A stretch of DNA of 64,000 bases from a bacterium (lineage in GTDB: Bacteria > UBP6 > UBA1177), in assembly GCA_017961325.1 (NCBI GenBank), contig JAGCXM010000011.1:1-64000 (forward strand). Direction: 5' to 3'. This document shows positions 43,624-51,677 of this stretch, piece by piece (within the stretch, counting starts at the first letter, position 1; every line of letters starts with the position of its first letter). The notes below the pieces were generated by a model. That model made no database searches. It worked only from the letters and a program-made list of their open reading frames with translations, and had not been told where the DNA came from. The translations under genes were made by a program, and so were the position numbers.

Positions 43624-45879
43624 TTGATAAAGTTTATAAAAAACAAAATCGGTAATGATTTAAACACTTTTTCCGACGTAAGAAACGGTTCTCTCAACAA
43701 TCTGGACAAATTTCTGATACTTTTCACCGTCATTCTGTGCGCACTGCTCTACATCCCGATGCTCGGCAACTTCCTGATGATTGATCCCTGGGAAAATCAC
43801 TATTCGCATGTTGCGTGGGAGACACTTGAAAAAAATTCATTCGCAAAGCTGTGGTTTCAGAACTCGAACAAATTCTGGTCCAAGCCGCCGCTTCTTTTCT
43901 GGATGCTGATGCCGTTTTACAAGTTCAACATTTCCGAATTTTCCGGCAGATTTCCGATAGCCGTTTTTTCAATACTTGCCCTTGCCGGATTCTATATTCT
44001 TCTGACCCGTCTGATTTCGCGAAAATCAGCAGTAATTTCGACGTTTGTTCTGATGCTTTCACCGCAGTATTTCATGCTTTCGCGTCAGATCATGGTCGAT
44101 CTTCCCTTTGTCGCGCTCAATACGATTGCGATGCTCTGCATGGCGGTTTACTACTTCGGAAATATCGGTGAAGACGAAAAAGTATTCAAAAAAATCTCAA
44201 GAAAGGACCTTTACTTATGGCTCTTTTACTTTTTTGAAGGATGGGCTTTCCTTGCAAAAGGTCTGCTCTCAATAGTCATTCCCGGGGTATCTCTTTTCAT
44301 TTTTATGATATTTACGAGAAATTTCGGTTATTTTTTCTCATGGAAACACCTTAAAAAACATTTAATCGGTATGGTCGTATACCTTGCCGTAGTCATGCCG
44401 TGGTTTGGATATATGTGTGCAAGTGAAGGAAAAAGTTTCTTTGACACTTTCATTATCTATCACCACTTCAAAAGAACGGCCGGCGAAATTCACAAGCCGA
44501 ACGATCTTTACACGCTTTACATAAGAATTTTAGGCTATGCCCTTTTCCCGTGGAGTGCATTTCTGCCAGCAGCGCTTTACAATTTTCTGACAAGAAAAGA
44601 TGAAGATTCGGAAAAAACGAAAAAGCTTTTCTTTTTCAGTTCATTTATCGGACCTTTTCTTTTTTTCTCGTTTTCATCGACTAAATTTTACCACTATATT
44701 GCACCTGTAGTTCCGTTTCTTGCAATATTTTTAGGTATCTATATTGAAAAACTCTGGAGTATGCGCTGGACTCTGGCTTCAAAGCTCGAAGCTTTGGTAT
44801 CAATATTTCTGGTTGCTGCAATCGGTCGCGACATAGGTGACAAACACACGCTGTTTCTTCATCTCGTAACTTTCTACAACACGAGAAAAGTTCCCACCGG
44901 ATCATCATGGGAAATAACAGTAATTTCTGTTTTCACAATTTTTTGCATAGTAATTTTATCAATGATTCTTAATAATTACATGCAAAAGAAGGGTTTTTAC
45001 ATTCTTTTTGCGCTCAGTGCCGGATTCATGACCTACTATTTCGCCGACCAGCTGCCGGAGATTTCGAAATACTACTCGCTGAAACCTCACGTGGAAGCCT
45101 ATCTGAAGGACAGTCCGACAAGAGAGCCTATCGCCGACTACTACAAATGGCTGAGAAAATCGGCAGGTTTCTGGCTTAAAAACAACATAACGTTTTTACA
45201 GACCGACAAAGAGAAAAATGTTCTTAAATTTTTCAAGAAACCGGGAAATCAATATGTTATTATGCGCGAAAACGACCAGAAACGATTTGATGCGCTTATG
45301 AAAAGAGTAAATAAAAAGGGAGTAGTCATATACAAAGGCGGAAAAAACATCCTTATGAAAGTTGCAGGACAGGGTGAAAAACAGGATTTTTCAGGCGCAA
45401 AAAATTACATCGTAGGAAAACTTCCCGACAACATTATAAAATCAAATATTCTGTTTGACAACGTAATAAAATTCGAAGGATTTTCTGTAGATAACGGAAA
45501 AATTACTGAAAAGGACGGAAAATACTTCGCAAAAGAAGGTTCAGAAATAAATGTCCAGCTTTATTTCAGATCAGTGTCGGACAAAATAAACAGAGATTAC
45601 GACGTTTTCCTACACAACGAAGGAAACAAAAAGGACAAAAGAACAAAAGGTGACGGAAACATGGCTAACGGAACTTATCCGACTAATTTCTGGAAAAAAG
45701 GTGAAATCATCAGACATCCGTTAAAAATAAAAATACCTAAGGATTCAAAAAATGATTTCTATGTTTCATACTTCGGAATATATCAGGAAGAGTACAGGGC
45801 AAACATAACAAACAAAGACGAAGTGAAAAATGACGGTGACAACAGAGCCGAACTTTTAAGAATCTACCTTGACAGATAA
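43624..45879 (+). CDS. GT39/ArnT-type membrane glycosyltransferase
   Basis: A 751-residue integral membrane protein with about ten to twelve hydrophobic segments in the first 470 residues. The first extracytoplasmic loop contains MIDPWENHYSHVAWE (about 52-66), with the acidic catalytic position of PMT_2/ArnT enzymes. Next come NKFWSKPPLLFWM and GRFPIAVFS. The C-terminal about 280 residues are soluble, with a beta-rich end. It would transfer a sugar from a polyprenyl carrier to a lipid or protein. The TTG start follows AAGGAGTGAAAA. The end overlaps recF tail-to-tail by 16 bp. Confidence 0.85.
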   Translation: MIKFIKNKIGNDLNTFSDVRNGSLNNLDKFLILFTVILCALLYIPMLGNFLMIDPWENHYSHVAWETLEKNSFAKLWFQNSNKFWSKPPLLFWMLMPFYKFNISEFSGRFPIAVFSILALAGFYILLTRLISRKSAVISTFVLMLSPQYFMLSRQIMVDLPFVALNTIAMLCMAVYYFGNIGEDEKVFKKISRKDLYLWLFYFFEGWAFLAKGLLSIVIPGVSLFIFMIFTRNFGYFFSWKHLKKHLIGMVVYLAVVMPWFGYMCASEGKSFFDTFIIYHHFKRTAGEIHKPNDLYTLYIRILGYALFPWSAFLPAALYNFLTRKDEDSEKTKKLFFFSSFIGPFLFFSFSSTKFYHYIAPVVPFLAIFLGIYIEKLWSMRWTLASKLEALVSIFLVAAIGRDIGDKHTLFLHLVTFYNTRKVPTGSSWEITVISVFTIFCIVILSMILNNYMQKKGFYILFALSAGFMTYYFADQLPEISKYYSLKPHVEAYLKDSPTREPIADYYKWLRKSAGFWLKNNITFLQTDKEKNVLKFFKKPGNQYVIMRENDQKRFDALMKRVNKKGVVIYKGGKNILMKVAGQGEKQDFSGAKNYIVGKLPDNIIKSNILFDNVIKFEGFSVDNGKITEKDGKYFAKEGSEINVQLYFRSVSDKINRDYDVFLHNEGNKKDKRTKGDGNMANGTYPTNFWKKGEIIRHPLKIKIPKDSKNDFYVSYFGIYQEEYRANITNKDEVKNDGDNRAELLRIYLDR

Positions 45880-46892
45880 AAAATTTTCATATTATTGAAA
45901 TTATTAATATTTTCTATTGAACTTGTCATAAGAACCTGATTTTTTAAAGCCTCTATCTCATTAAAAAGTCTCTTTTTCATTTCATCATCTACAAAAACAA
46001 ATATATCGTCAGCCAAAAAAACGGGATATTCATTTTTTCCGGCATGAATGCTCAGTTCGGCAAGTTTTATCAGAAAGGAACCTATGTAAGTTTCACCCAT
46101 GGAAATATTGTTTTTTGCATTTCCTATTTCGGTAGTTATGTTTATTACGTCAAGATGCGGACCGTAAAGAGAAAAACCTTTTTCAAGCTCTTTTTCAAGT
46201 TTCATTTCAAGCTTCTCGGCACAATTTTCATCAATGCTGCAGGAAAAAAATATCTTCATTTTAGAAAAAAGTCTTTCCGAAAGAGATCCAATAAATTTAT
46301 TTACGGTTTCACACGAGGCGTTTCTTTTTTTTCTTATTCTGTTGATAAGCGGAACGGCAGCACTGTTCAAATATTTAACAACTTCTGTGTTTCCGTTCTT
46401 TAGTGCTGTATTTTTGTTTTTTACAAAACGCAGATATTCGCTCATATCGTCAAAATAAGCTTTGTCCTCAATGAAACATATTCTGTCTATAAAATCGCGT
46501 CTGAATTTTGGACTTCCGCTTATTATAAGCATGTCGTCAGGTGAATGTATAACAGGGTAAACCATATTAAGCAGACTTTTTCTTGAAGATACAGTGCCGT
46601 CTATAAGAATTTTCTTGTTTCCGCTTCTGTCATAACCAACCGAAACTGTTCTCGAATAACCTTCAAAATCATTAAAATCCGACCTAATGTAGAAATTCTG
46701 GCTGTTTTTTGAAATGCAGTCTTTTATATCGTTCGTTTTAAACGATTTTCCGCTTGAAAGAATAGAACAGGCCTCCAAAACGGATGTTTTTCCAGAACCA
46801 GTTCTCCCTTTTATCAAGAGCTTTTGGGGTAAATACAATGAAAAATCGGATAGAGATCTGAAATTTGAAATAAAAACTGAATTTATTTTCAT
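45864..46892 (-). CDS. recF: DNA replication and repair protein RecF (divergent)
   Basis: A 342-residue SMC-like ATPase for loading RecA at gaps. Walker A GRTGSGKTSVLEA lies at about 29-41, followed by the family segment SPDDMLIISGSPKFRRDFIDR (about 117-137). The ABC signature is degenerate (ISMGETYIG), as is Walker B (FLADDIFVFVDDE instead of LLDDVxSELD). Its identity is supported by position directly behind dnaN (5-bp gap). ATP hydrolysis may be altered. Confidence 0.88.
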   Translation of the reverse strand: MKINSVFISNFRSLSDFSLYLPQKLLIKGRTGSGKTSVLEACSILSSGKSFKTNDIKDCISKNSQNFYIRSDFNDFEGYSRTVSVGYDRSGNKKILIDGTVSSRKSLLNMVYPVIHSPDDMLIISGSPKFRRDFIDRICFIEDKAYFDDMSEYLRFVKNKNTALKNGNTEVVKYLNSAAVPLINRIRKKRNASCETVNKFIGSLSERLFSKMKIFFSCSIDENCAEKLEMKLEKELEKGFSLYGPHLDVINITTEIGNAKNNISMGETYIGSFLIKLAELSIHAGKNEYPVFLADDIFVFVDDEMKKRLFNEIEALKNQVLMTSSIENINNFNNMKIFYLSR

Positions 46893-46897
46893 AAATG

Positions 46898-48061
46898 TCA
46901 GATTCTAAGCGGCATTACCATATGAACATAAAACAAGTCGTCATTCTCTTCCTTTATAATCATAGGAGGCATGCTTCTTCTTTCACTCGGATCTTCAATT
47001 ATAATCTTAACGTTAGAATCATCGATTATGTTGATCACGTCAAGGAAGTATCTTGCGTTGACGGCAATATTCTTTTCAGATGAAAAACCTTGTTCTACAA
47101 CTATCTCGTCATTCGAACTTCCGCCAGTCTTCGTGTTTGCGCTCATAGAAAGAACTGAACCCTTAAAGGAATATACAGAAGCCCAAATTTTTTCGTCAGA
47201 ACTCAAAACAATCGTTCTTTTGATGGCTTCAATGAGTTCGTTCCTATTAACAACAGCATACTCTTTTTCATTTATGCTTTCATAAGTTCCTATTATAGGA
47301 CGGTGATTCGGAAATTCATTTTTTATAAGCCTCGAAATAAAGAAGACATTTTCATTTTTTACAAAAAGCTTGTCATCGTCTATAGCCATTTCAGCTTCAT
47401 CCGAATCGGCAAAAATTTTGTTCATTTCGGTATAGTTCTTTCCGGGAATTACTATGCCTTTTTCAATTTCTTCAAAATCCATATCAAAATTTTTAAGGCT
47501 TAAAACGGAAAGTCTGTGAATATCGGTCGTTACTAATTCGATATGGTCAGATCCGTTTTCATCCTTGGTTTTAGTAATCAAAACGCCTGAATAAGTCTTA
47601 TTCAAATAATAATCAGCCATTGAAAACTGAACTTTTCTGAAAGCAGATATTATTCTGCATATTTTCACTTTCCTGAATTCCTTTTCAGTCTGCGGAATAG
47701 CCGGAAAATCAGAAGCATCCGGGCATGGAACGTTATATTCAGACTTTCCGGATTTTACATTAAGAACATTGTTTGTCTCATCATAAACGAAAACAACGTT
47801 TTCACCTCTTACGAGACGGCATATGTTAAGTATATAAGATGCCGGAACGGCTATTTTCCCTTCAGATGAAACAGGTTCCAGAAGGTGCGTTTTTGCAACT
47901 ACAGTAGTTTCAAGATTGGTAGCATTAAGAAAACATTCGGAATCTTTGAATTTAAAAAGAATGTGAGTGATAATAATCATGGCATGCTTCTTCTCAATGG
48001 AAGAACTGCAGTAGTCGATAGCTTTGAGAAGTTCGTCTCTTTTAAAAGTTAAATTAATCAT
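46898..48061 (-). CDS. dnaN: DNA polymerase III beta sliding clamp DnaN
   Basis: A 387-residue clamp. The three clamp domains can be followed (TFKRDELLKAIDYCSSSIEKK, TDIHRLSVLSL, VNARYFLDVINI). The protein ends VMPLRI, matching the MPxRL tail that forms part of the peptide-binding pocket. Start at 48061 follows TGGAGAATCTG; an ATG four codons earlier overlaps that site. It lies between dnaA and recF on the same strand. The sequence is more divergent than most housekeeping genes here. Confidence 0.95.
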   Translation of the reverse strand: MINLTFKRDELLKAIDYCSSSIEKKHAMIIITHILFKFKDSECFLNATNLETTVVAKTHLLEPVSSEGKIAVPASYILNICRLVRGENVVFVYDETNNVLNVKSGKSEYNVPCPDASDFPAIPQTEKEFRKVKICRIISAFRKVQFSMADYYLNKTYSGVLITKTKDENGSDHIELVTTDIHRLSVLSLKNFDMDFEEIEKGIVIPGKNYTEMNKIFADSDEAEMAIDDDKLFVKNENVFFISRLIKNEFPNHRPIIGTYESINEKEYAVVNRNELIEAIKRTIVLSSDEKIWASVYSFKGSVLSMSANTKTGGSSNDEIVVEQGFSSEKNIAVNARYFLDVINIIDDSNVKIIIEDPSERRSMPPMIIKEENDDLFYVHMVMPLRI

Positions 48062-48108
48062 CAGATTCTCCATATAATAAAAAACTAATTATAATAACTC
48101 TGCTATAA

Positions 48109-48284
48109 TGTTGAAAAGTTTGGATTTGTCAATAAAAACAGGATAATAAATGATGTTTTTTGTGTTGAAAAACATGCTGGTTTCTTGTTGTTTTCTTATC
48201 TTTGAAATTTTCAACATTGAAATTTTCAACATTTGTTACAAATTGCTGTTGTTACTTTCTATTTCGTGTTCTATTTTTTCAACA
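48109..48284. other. Candidate origin-linked cluster of TTTTCAACA boxes
   Basis: Five exact copies of the 9-mer TTTTCAACA occur within 176 bp, at 48109-48117 and 48163-48171 (reverse) and at 48208-48216, 48223-48231 and 48276-48284 (forward). A one-mismatch copy lies at 48318-48326. They lie in the AT-rich dnaA-dnaN gap and the last codons of dnaA. The box differs from the TTTTCCACA form of the DnaA box at one position. This is a plausible oriC or dnaA autoregulation site; no TTATCCACA is seen here. Confidence 0.55.
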
Positions 48285-49591
48285 AGTTTCTTTATGTTGG
48301 TGTCTTCATAGATGAGTTTTTCAACGTTGTCTATTGAATTTTTTACTGTTGAATGATCTCTTCCTCCGAAACTTTCACCTATTTCTTCCAGAGTTTTGGA
48401 AGTGTATTTTCTTGAAATATACATTGCTATCTGTCTTGACATTGAAATCTGTTTAGTTCTTTTTTTGGAAGTTATTTCGGAAGGTTTTATGAAAGTATTT
48501 CCGGCAACTATTTTTATTATATCGTCTATTCCGGCTGTTTTGTCCTTTTTTATGAAGCTTTTGAGTATGTTTTTTGCAAAATCCCTGTCAATTATTTCTT
48601 TTCCTATGAAACAGAAAGATATTTTAAGTGTTTTTAGTGCGCCTTCTATTTCCCTTATGTTATTCCTTATATTGGAAGCTATCAGATCCACTGCTTCATC
48701 GCTTATTTTTATGCCGTAAAGTTCAGATTTTTTCTTTATTATTGCGACTCTGGTTTCATATTCAGGAGGTTTTATATCAAGTGATACACCCATTGAAAAT
48801 CTTGTTTTAAGTCTGTCGTCTATATCTTTTATTTCAGATATATATTTGTCTGAAGTTATTACTATCTGTTTGTTTTTATTATAGAAAGTATTGAAAATGT
48901 AGAAAAATTCATCCTGGGTTCCGGTTTTTCCGGATAAGAACTGTATATCGTCTATAAGAAGAACATCTTTTTTTATTATATTCTCCCTGAATTCGGGAAC
49001 TGTCTTGTTCTCAATCGATTTTACGTATTCGTTCATAAGCTGGTTTGCAGTAGAATAATAAACGCTCTTTTTTCTGTTTTCCCTGATATAGTTTCCTATT
49101 GCCTTGACTATATGAGTTTTTCCAAGACCTGAATCACCGTAAACAAAAAAAGGATTGTAATCTGATCCCGGATTTTTGGCTATTGTCTTGGCAGCATTAT
49201 AAACTGTTATGTTTGAAGGTCCTGAGACGAAGTTATCAAAGGTATAACCTCTGAAATTGTCTTCAAAACTTATGTTTTTTTCTGTTTTTTCAGCGGGTTT
49301 TTCTTTTTTTTCATCTTCTTCAAAAGTTATGTTTGTCTGAATTTTTTCATCATCATCATCCTGTTTTATGATGATTTTTACTTTGGTATTTTGTTCAAAC
49401 AAAGTCTGTGCTATACTTGTTATTTTATTTAAGTATTTGTTTTTATTTAAAAAATCATAAGCTATACTGCTTCTGCAGCATAGAACTATCTCATCTCTTG
49501 ATTCCTGCATAGGATATAACGGACTTATGAAAGTTTTTATCAAATTTTCATTTTCCGTCTTTTTAAGCTCTTCCAATATTTTTTTCCACAT
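48236..49591 (-). CDS. dnaA: Chromosomal replication initiator DnaA
   Basis: A 451-residue AAA+ initiator. N-terminal domain I (MWKKILEELKK), an acidic linker (about 75-115), and the AAA domain with NPFFVYGDSGLGKTH (about 146-160), VLLIDDIQFLSGK and DDRLKTRF (box VII Arg finger). The C-terminal DNA-binding domain has the signature GGRDHSTVKNSIDNVEK (about 412-428). The ATG follows AGAGGACTGA. It heads dnaA-dnaN-recF and is divergent from the HEAT-like gene. Confidence 0.97.
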   Translation of the reverse strand: MWKKILEELKKTENENLIKTFISPLYPMQESRDEIVLCCRSSIAYDFLNKNKYLNKITSIAQTLFEQNTKVKIIIKQDDDDEKIQTNITFEEDEKKEKPAEKTEKNISFEDNFRGYTFDNFVSGPSNITVYNAAKTIAKNPGSDYNPFFVYGDSGLGKTHIVKAIGNYIRENRKKSVYYSTANQLMNEYVKSIENKTVPEFRENIIKKDVLLIDDIQFLSGKTGTQDEFFYIFNTFYNKNKQIVITSDKYISEIKDIDDRLKTRFSMGVSLDIKPPEYETRVAIIKKKSELYGIKISDEAVDLIASNIRNNIREIEGALKTLKISFCFIGKEIIDRDFAKNILKSFIKKDKTAGIDDIIKIVAGNTFIKPSEITSKKRTKQISMSRQIAMYISRKYTSKTLEEIGESFGGRDHSTVKNSIDNVEKLIYEDTNIKKLVEKIEHEIESNNSNL

Positions 49592-49778
49592 TCAGTCCTC
49601 TAAGTTCTGACAAAAACTTTTTCTATTTTCCCGAAGATTCGTTACTTTTCAAGAAAAAAAATTTTTTTTTGATAACAAAATTCAAATGTCAGTTTTTTCA
49701 GCGGGTTGACAAAATTCATCTTTTTGTTGAATAAATAGTAAAAACAATTAAAATGGTGCGATTTTTTAGGAGGTCTTC
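49592..49778. other. Divergent dnaA upstream region
   Basis: 187 bp of very AT-rich DNA with a run of about nine T residues near 49668-49677 and GCGGGTTGACA at 49701-49711. TTGACA (49706-49711) may serve the HEAT-like gene. No DnaA-box cluster is visible. It is an alternative site for part of the origin. Confidence 0.35.
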
Positions 49779-51677
49779 ATGCTGTATATAGGCAAAAAAC
49801 TCGAACTTACAGAGTATTTTAAATCAATTCCGCTGGATCAGAAAAAGCAGCTTTACAGAGGAATTCGTTCGATAATTGCGATGCTTGTAAAAGTTTCCAA
49901 GATGACGGAAATTTATTCGGTAAGGGATAAAATCTTTTCAGAATTCACTGAAACGATGAAGCAGAATATAGATGTTATCCACAATCTTCTTCCGTTTGCA
50001 TCGCTGACCACCAAAAAAGTCGGTTTTTACTATCAGGAAAGGAAAATAAAGCTATTCGATGAAGGTGAAAGAAAATTCAGAAACATATTTTTAAGTAATG
50101 AGATCAGAGAGCTGTATTTTGTAAAAGGTGTAACGCCTGAAGAAATAGTCAACTTTTTTGCAGTAATTCAGGAGACCTTGAATTATACTTTGCTTGATTA
50201 CGACTTCAATACGAGACTTTGGGATTACGGCATAACGCACATAGGAACTATTTCCGATCCCGACATGGGCGATCCTGAACCGTGGGAGGAAAGCTGGTTT
50301 AAAAACGATGTAGAGCCTGTTACTTATGAAAAACTTTTTTCAATGAAGCCTCAAAGCGTGGATGAGCAATCTGATTTTTTAAATGAATTCAATATGATGC
50401 CTGTTGTTGACATGGAAAAGTTCAACAAGTGGAAAGAGAGCTGCGGCAAGGAGATGGTCGTAAGCAAATATCTTGAAAAAGCAGTAAAAATAGTTCTTTC
50501 CTCTTCAAACCACGAAACAAACAAAAATATTGTCGGAAAGATATGCGAATATGCCGTAAAGAATATACAGAACGCCGATTTCATTTCCGGTGTCACTTAT
50601 ATTAATAATTTGATTTTATTGGAAAAAAACCTTAAAGAAAAGGATGAGGTCATCTACACCAAAGTAAAAGAGGTTCTCGACAGAATCAAGTCTGAAGATT
50701 TTCTAGACACGATTTTTGAATTCGGCGCGGTCATGGACAGTTCGCAGCTTAAAAGTTTCAGCGAACTTATAATTTTTGCCAGTGAACTCAATTTTGAAAC
50801 GGTTTTCATTAAACTTTGCGATCTTGAAAGTAAAGAAACGCGGCTTTACTGCCTCGAAGGTCTGGCTAAAAATCTTAAAGACAATGAAATGATTCAGAGA
50901 TTTATCGACAATCCGGACTGGCACATAGTGAGGAATTTCCTTTACATTCTCCGGTTTGTCTACAATCCTGAGTTTCTGCCGCAGGTCAGATCGGTAATGA
51001 ACCACGAAGTCAAACAGATAAGAATCGAGGCGGCGCATGTTCTGAGTATTTATGATGCGGACGAAAACATTGAATACTGGGAAAAGGCGGTTTTCTGCCC
51101 TGATGAAGAAGTAAGAATTCTGGCGGTCGAAAACCTTGTGAAAGTCAAGGATCAGAGAGTGAAATTTATTTTCAACGAAATTTTCAAACCTTCAAACCGC
51201 TCGAAATTCAACCTTACCGATTATGAGCGTTATATGGACCGTATTCTGGCTTCCGGAAGAAACGAATTTTTTGACCTTCCCGGTTCAATGATTTTTTCCG
51301 AAAATCGTGAATTGAGAATTATTGCATTGAAATCACTGAATAAATTAAGTAATCCGTCGATGGTTCTGATGCAGATTAAAAGAAGGCTGAGCAGTAAAGA
51401 ATTTTTGTCGCTTGACAAAGAGGAAATAGATCTCCTGCTCGGTTTGATGAAAGGTGAAATGGTTATGCCTATGCTCGAACATCTTGAGTATCTCTTTACG
51501 CTTCACGGAAATATATTCAATAAAAGCAAATACTTACCATTAAAAAAGCAGGTTTTCGGCTTTGTTATGCAGGGAGCGGCGAAAAATACCGCCATGCGCA
51601 GCTGGATAGAGAAGGGAAAGGCGAAGGGTGACAGCGAAACCCGTTCGATTCTTGAGGGAGAGGTTAGTCATGGATGA
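49779..51677 (+). CDS. HEAT-repeat-like protein of unknown function
   Basis: A 632-residue soluble helical protein. The N-terminal part has a pattern (KIKLFDEGERKFRNIFLSN, IRELYFVKGVTPEEIVNFF) also found in the next gene. The second half has HEAT/armadillo-like units (VRNFLYILRFVYNPEFLPQVRSVM, IRIEAAHVLSIYDADENI, VRILAVENLVKVKDQRVK). No enzyme motif is visible. It starts after TAGGAGGTCTTC and overlaps the next gene by 8 bp. Similar pairs with HD-type proteins occur in deltaproteobacterial genomes (recollection, not checked). Confidence 0.7.
   Translation: MLYIGKKLELTEYFKSIPLDQKKQLYRGIRSIIAMLVKVSKMTEIYSVRDKIFSEFTETMKQNIDVIHNLLPFASLTTKKVGFYYQERKIKLFDEGERKFRNIFLSNEIRELYFVKGVTPEEIVNFFAVIQETLNYTLLDYDFNTRLWDYGITHIGTISDPDMGDPEPWEESWFKNDVEPVTYEKLFSMKPQSVDEQSDFLNEFNMMPVVDMEKFNKWKESCGKEMVVSKYLEKAVKIVLSSSNHETNKNIVGKICEYAVKNIQNADFISGVTYINNLILLEKNLKEKDEVIYTKVKEVLDRIKSEDFLDTIFEFGAVMDSSQLKSFSELIIFASELNFETVFIKLCDLESKETRLYCLEGLAKNLKDNEMIQRFIDNPDWHIVRNFLYILRFVYNPEFLPQVRSVMNHEVKQIRIEAAHVLSIYDADENIEYWEKAVFCPDEEVRILAVENLVKVKDQRVKFIFNEIFKPSNRSKFNLTDYERYMDRILASGRNEFFDLPGSMIFSENRELRIIALKSLNKLSNPSMVLMQIKRRLSSKEFLSLDKEEIDLLLGLMKGEMVMPMLEHLEYLFTLHGNIFNKSKYLPLKKQVFGFVMQGAAKNTAMRSWIEKGKAKGDSETRSILEGEVSHG

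Follow-up and report, generated by a model that had tools for sequence, protein, structure and literature searches.

The window analysed here, a stretch of 64,000 nucleotides of a bacterial contig, raises the question of where replication begins in a lineage whose dnaA gene is followed by repeats of a nonamer that is almost, but not exactly, a DnaA box. The repeated element, TTTTCAACA, is an ordinary DnaA box in which the C at position 6 has become A, one base away from the known box as the sequence-only reading had stated. That reading had also held that an origin is expected here and that this DnaA accepts a variant box, which conservation and the contig skew minimum make the best-supported account. 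We consider it highly likely that the dnaA-dnaN spacer is the chromosomal oriC and that its DnaA uses a box with A at position 6 (A6, TTWTNAACA; the ordinary form is C6, TTWTNCACA). Placement of the origin in the spacer, for which position, conservation and low duplex stability were observed, is very probable; use of the A6 box by DnaA, for which the base preference was observed and binding would follow, is probable. The features concerned are these, by position in the window:

45864..46892, minus strand: recF-like gene (Pfam SMC_N 1e-10, AAA_15, AAA_23), so named from its position and domains; it completes the order dnaA-dnaN-recF
46898..48073, minus strand: dnaN (Pfam DNA_pol3_beta N, central and C domains)
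48062..48235, no strand: dnaA-dnaN spacer, proposed oriC, with four exact boxes and low duplex stability
48105..48132, minus strand: promoter-like TTGACA-16-CATTAT before dnaN; TTGACA columns 0.94 identical in 11 genus members
48109..48117, minus strand: dnaN-proximal exact box, mean column identity 0.93, overlapping the spacer of the conserved TTGACA promoter-like site
48163..48171, minus strand: core box 3, exact, in opposite orientation and pointing to dnaN; identity averaging 0.97 across 11 genus members
48208..48216, plus strand: core box 2, exact, 15 bp from box 1; mean identity 0.96
48223..48231, plus strand: core box 1, exact (TGTTGAAAA on the dnaA strand), 4 bp past the dnaA stop; column identity averaging 0.92 across 11 genus members, position common to 18 of 20 order members
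48236..49591, minus strand: dnaA, 451 aa (Pfam Bac_DnaA 1.2e-58, Bac_DnaA_C 2.5e-25, DnaA_N 1.5e-6; PDB match to DnaA chain 8btg_A, 3.5e-86)
48276..48284, plus strand: fifth exact copy of TTTTCAACA, in dnaA codons (LVEK), not kept as a box in relatives
48318..48326, plus strand: one-mismatch copy, TTTTCAACG, in dnaA codons (NVEKL)

The true start of dnaN is probably the inner ATG at 48061 (MINLTF) rather than the first possible start at 48073, since relatives begin MIKLTF or MIELTF after GGAG and the GGAG ribosome site occurs here too. With this start the spacer measures 174 bp, and those of family relatives measure 172–176 bp. It adjoins an intact dnaA, whose product has both the AAA+ domain and the C-terminal DnaA helix-turn-helix.

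The five exact copies of TTTTCAACA, in both orientations within 176 bp, and the one-mismatch copy were all confirmed, but their description as lying between dnaN and dnaA holds for four of the five: the copy at 48276, like the mismatch copy at 48318, is inside dnaA. At 48276 even the closest relative (L002) lacks the box, having cttatagaaaaa there, and the copies at 48276 and 48318 are probably incidental. The window holds eight copies of TTTTCAACA against 2.45 expected, a number reached in none of 100 shuffles, and the whole genome (2.35 Mb) holds 159, about one per 15 kb. No other of the 69,142 distinct 9-mers (strands merged) in the 162,571-bp contig reaches five copies within 200 bp. The spacer contains no canonical TTWTNCACA box and no site within one mismatch of TTATCCACA, so origin finders at default settings may miss such origins. 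Two ordinary boxes nearby were not counted as origin boxes: TTTTCCACA at 49582 forms the first dnaA codons (MWKK), and TTATCCACA at 49975 lies inside the next gene (at 49779).

Conservation in relatives, proposed at the outset as a check on the boxes, was examined in 28 genomes of the phylum. DnaA was found in 23, namely 20 of the 25 genomes of the window's order (families f1–f3, its own genome included) and three of family f4; the five order genomes in which it was not found are excluded from every count except the search for the tandem-pair pattern. Those relatives that have names come from rumen or gut metagenomes: RGIG10122 from yak rumen, a red deer record, and RUG12558, which carries the label Spirochaetales. 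The pair of boxes keeps a fixed place in 18 of the 20 order members, starting 4–5 and 18–19 bp past the dnaA stop. TGTT opens the first box in 17 of these 18 (L011 has TGTC) and the second in 16, the remaining two, L003 and L005, having TGTG, that is, the canonical TTTTCCACA. The position of core box 2 is thus occupied across relatives by TTTTCAACA, by TTTTCCACA in these two, or by TTTTAAACA (L002 and L008), and DnaA boxes would be expected to alternate in this way between TTTTCAACA and TTTTCCACA at one position within a genus.

The opposed third box is conserved genus-wide. In the 11 genus members the three core boxes have a mean column identity of 0.949, compared with 0.804 for spacer columns belonging neither to a box nor to the TTGACA site, and 276 of 20,000 random block triples reached the core-box value. 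Least constant is the box at 48109, where most relatives have CTTTAAACA, beside the promoter-like site. The exact tandem pair occurs once each in nine of the 28 phylum genomes, at the dnaA 3′ end in seven of the nine; the other two lie on contigs C30 of G016 and C103 of G002.

Two order members, L019 and L020, lack the TGTT pair at +4/+19. L020 has a single TGTTGATAA near the dnaA stop, and L019 (contig C43 of genome G005) has TGTCGAAAA, TGTCGATTT and TGTCGATAA in box positions 8–42 bp past the stop. These L019 boxes are of TGTCGA type (TTTTCGACA and kin), with G at position 6, and the recognition helix of its DnaA reads RNHSTIIC. G005 is assigned to the window's genus, yet its DnaA is only 49% identical. 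The three f4 loci (L031, L032 and L034) have neither C6 nor A6 boxes behind dnaA, and the dnaA-dnaN spacer is very short in L031 (9 bp) and L032 (43 bp), so either the origin box or its place must differ in that family.

The preference at position 6 was measured by counting TTWTNxACA over the last 30 bp of dnaA and the 270 bp behind it, with dinucleotide shuffles giving the expectation. The 20 order loci contain 41 A6 boxes (4.7 expected), 2 C6 (1.4), 11 with G (2.0) and 4 with T (2.3), the G counts coming mostly from TTATTGACA of the dnaN promoter and the L019 boxes. For comparison, 190 loci were used from 262 genomes of other phyla, a few genomes twice; two loci with less than 200 bp behind dnaA were dropped from this count, and the family count takes one locus each. 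The resulting 167 families contain 178 C6 boxes (6.6 expected), 95 A6 (15.8), 8 with G (6.4) and 19 with T (12.6). At least two A6 boxes together with no C6 were found at 14 of 20 order loci versus nine of the 167 other families. In bacteria at large A6 is a genuine minority box, while most boxes in this order are of that form. The enrichment of A6 behind dnaA in other phyla indicates that it is a real minor DnaA box elsewhere.

The sequence-only reading described the DnaA C-terminal signature as near canonical, which is only partly true of the residues that contact bases. In the available part of PMC7561715 these are given, after Fujikawa 2003, as R399, P423, D433, H434, T435 and H439; the window DnaA keeps three of the six (R399, D433 and H434) and has E423, S435 and N439 at the others, and P423, T435 and H439 are missing from all 20 order DnaAs. 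Many other DnaAs also vary at contact positions, so these changes are no argument against its identity as DnaA. Several genomes (G016, G021, G045 and G119) gave four to six matches each to the DnaA C-terminal domain, indicating extra proteins with a DnaA-like helix-turn-helix.

A first residue survey covered 119 other loci, mostly best-scoring Pfam matches, with L033 and L035–L052 dropped (fragments, weak matches, contig stretches and named duplicates), and residue 439 was H, Y or F in all of them. When lower-scoring genomes were added to offset the sample's bias toward canonical domains, bringing it to 190 loci, 17 had another residue there; these families keep C6 (18 against 1.0 expected; A6, 6 against 1.8), and residue 439 was rejected as a sufficient determinant of A6. 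Residue 423 was likewise rejected, showing no association (permutation 0.53). In other families a residue other than T at 435 went with a rise of 0.18 in the A6 share (permutation 0.016, uncorrected for relatedness or for the three positions tested), and we keep position 435 as a weak lead for A6 use. Ten other families with all three changes still favour C6 (15 versus 6 A6), so the protein changes by themselves do not explain A6. Changes at 423, 435 and 439 are neither rare nor sufficient, and the survey contradicts the simplest residue candidates; the claim of altered specificity accordingly comes from the boxes, not the protein.

Properties of the DNA itself also bear on the origin. By nearest-neighbour energies, no 200 bp of the 162-kb contig are less stable than those starting at 48038, which take in the spacer; this places easily unwound AT-rich DNA next to the boxes; with windows of 60 and 100 bp the same location ranks second and fifth least stable among separated windows. 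A skew minimum elsewhere had been named as evidence against an origin here. The cumulative GC-skew minimum over the contig, one of 48 in the assembly, is at 49,632, at the dnaA start and 1.4 kb from the spacer. The skew is shallow and its support for the origin modest. Relative G021 is roughly consistent: in the 200 kb examined its minimum (−1296) is at 298,230, 19 kb away from dnaA, and a dip almost as deep (−1274) occurs at 317,970 by dnaA. In relative G007 the GC skew shows nothing clear. DnaA-trios were not convincing in the genus, where [CT]TA runs comprise only one or two triplets; the trio score exceeded shuffles for A6 boxes (53.5 versus 7.4), but likewise for the other three box classes. 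Runs of three or four triplets were found only in L011, L014, L015 and L018, whose spacers have DnaA-trio-like TTATTATTA runs 30–60 bp ahead of dnaN; those of L011 and L015 follow an A6 box at a distance of about 10 bp.

Other explanations of the cluster fare differently. In favour of chance in AT-rich DNA and codons, the copies at 48276 and 48318, two of the six, fall in dnaA codons and are not conserved as boxes. Against it stand the shuffle counts, the contig-wide uniqueness of the 9-mer, its fixed position, the placement of the tandem pair and the core-box identity; with position-specific conservation found, a chance cluster is exceedingly improbable. The boxes might instead bind DnaA mainly to regulate transcription of dnaN (and dnaA), with the origin elsewhere, a role that the overlap of the 48109 box with the promoter-like site before dnaN would suit. 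We think this unlikely, as the tandem pair sits about 75–100 bp upstream of the TTGACA site, directly behind the dnaA stop, the dnaA-dnaN region holds both the contig's skew minimum and its least stable 200 bp, and the contig has no other five-copy cluster. That another DNA-binding protein recognises TTTTCAACA while DnaA uses other sites appears very unlikely: the lineage DnaA does differ at three of six contact positions and the spacer does lack a canonical box, but the aligned site is the canonical TTTTCCACA in L003 and L005, A6 is enriched behind dnaA across phyla with ordinary DnaA, and no repeated 9-mer on the contig competes with it.

A further account leaves the origin reading intact and overlaps with it, namely that DnaA is unchanged, reads position 6 loosely, and the C has drifted to A in AT-rich DNA. 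The frequency of A6 in other families (95 boxes in 167), the direction of the change toward A/T and the retention of C6 in families that share the contact changes all agree with drift. However, C6 in the order is not above chance, against the marked excess in other families; any deviation from TTATNCACA lowers DnaA affinity, as stated in the part of PMC5043019 available to us; and three f3 members with loci of 44–52% G+C still have TGTT at both box positions, so AT drift alone is unlikely. We regard this account as possible but rather doubtful.

On the preferred reading, that of an oriC whose DnaA uses the A6 box, the spacer at 48062–48235 would be the chromosome origin, and the C-terminal helix-turn-helix of DnaA would bind the three conserved TTTTCAACA boxes, the tandem pair behind dnaA and the opposed box facing dnaN. 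DnaA may then assemble from the pair and the opposed box toward dnaN, with the fourth box (48109) adjoining the AT-rich stretch before that gene, and by analogy with known origins would open this least stable DNA for helicase loading, strand opening in such a stretch being described for characterised origins in the accessible part of PMC8287927. Because A6 has replaced C6 throughout the order, its DnaA would at the least have to accept A at position 6 and probably favours it. We suggest, tentatively and at somewhat less than even confidence, an order-wide joint shift in which DnaA lost P423, T435 and H439 and came to prefer A over C; in the divergent member G005 the recognition helix would have altered further, and G-type boxes such as TTTTCGACA would be in use. 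The known range of DnaA recognition is broadened by an order in which position 6 is almost always A, and a close C6/A6/G6 series makes the DnaA-box code testable; if the joint shift is true, it offers a natural series for reading how that code shifts.

The box is not new as such, since all five copies of TTTTCAACA fall within the mollicute consensus TT(A/T)TC(C/A)ACA printed in section 3.1 of PMC3322544; if that consensus is allowed, a cluster of at least three DnaA boxes is present here. In the parts of the respective articles available to us, putative A6 boxes TTATTAACA are given for M. hominis (PMC2751442), one predicted box TTATCAACA for a Cyanothece chromosome (PMC4674748), and high-affinity 9-mers with C at position 6 in every case (PMC4285127, Table 1). 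An order-wide A6 box was not found in the literature searched for DnaA with TTTTCAACA, TTTTNAACA, TTATNAACA, TTWTNAACA and similar.

Measured against the dnaA-dnaN origins of B. subtilis and C. difficile (oriC2) as presented in the accessible part of PMC7561715, the locus shares the gene order dnaA-dnaN-recF and a spacer box cluster followed by the least stable DNA before dnaN, but differs in that its spacer has no TTWTNCACA, the genus has no clear DnaA-trio, and upstream of dnaA no second cluster of boxes was seen. With the mollicute box (PMC3322544; PMC2751442 for M. hominis) it shares A at position 6; the consensus printed there allows A6 and C6, whereas here A6 is near-exclusive, at fixed positions, and in an order of another phylum. 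The Epsilonproteobacteria, with box core TTCAC, resemble this order in that box preference shifted across the lineage and DnaA residue 435 is S or A, according to the part of PMC5043019 available to us, but there position 5 changed and the C at position 6 stayed, whereas here it is that C that changed.
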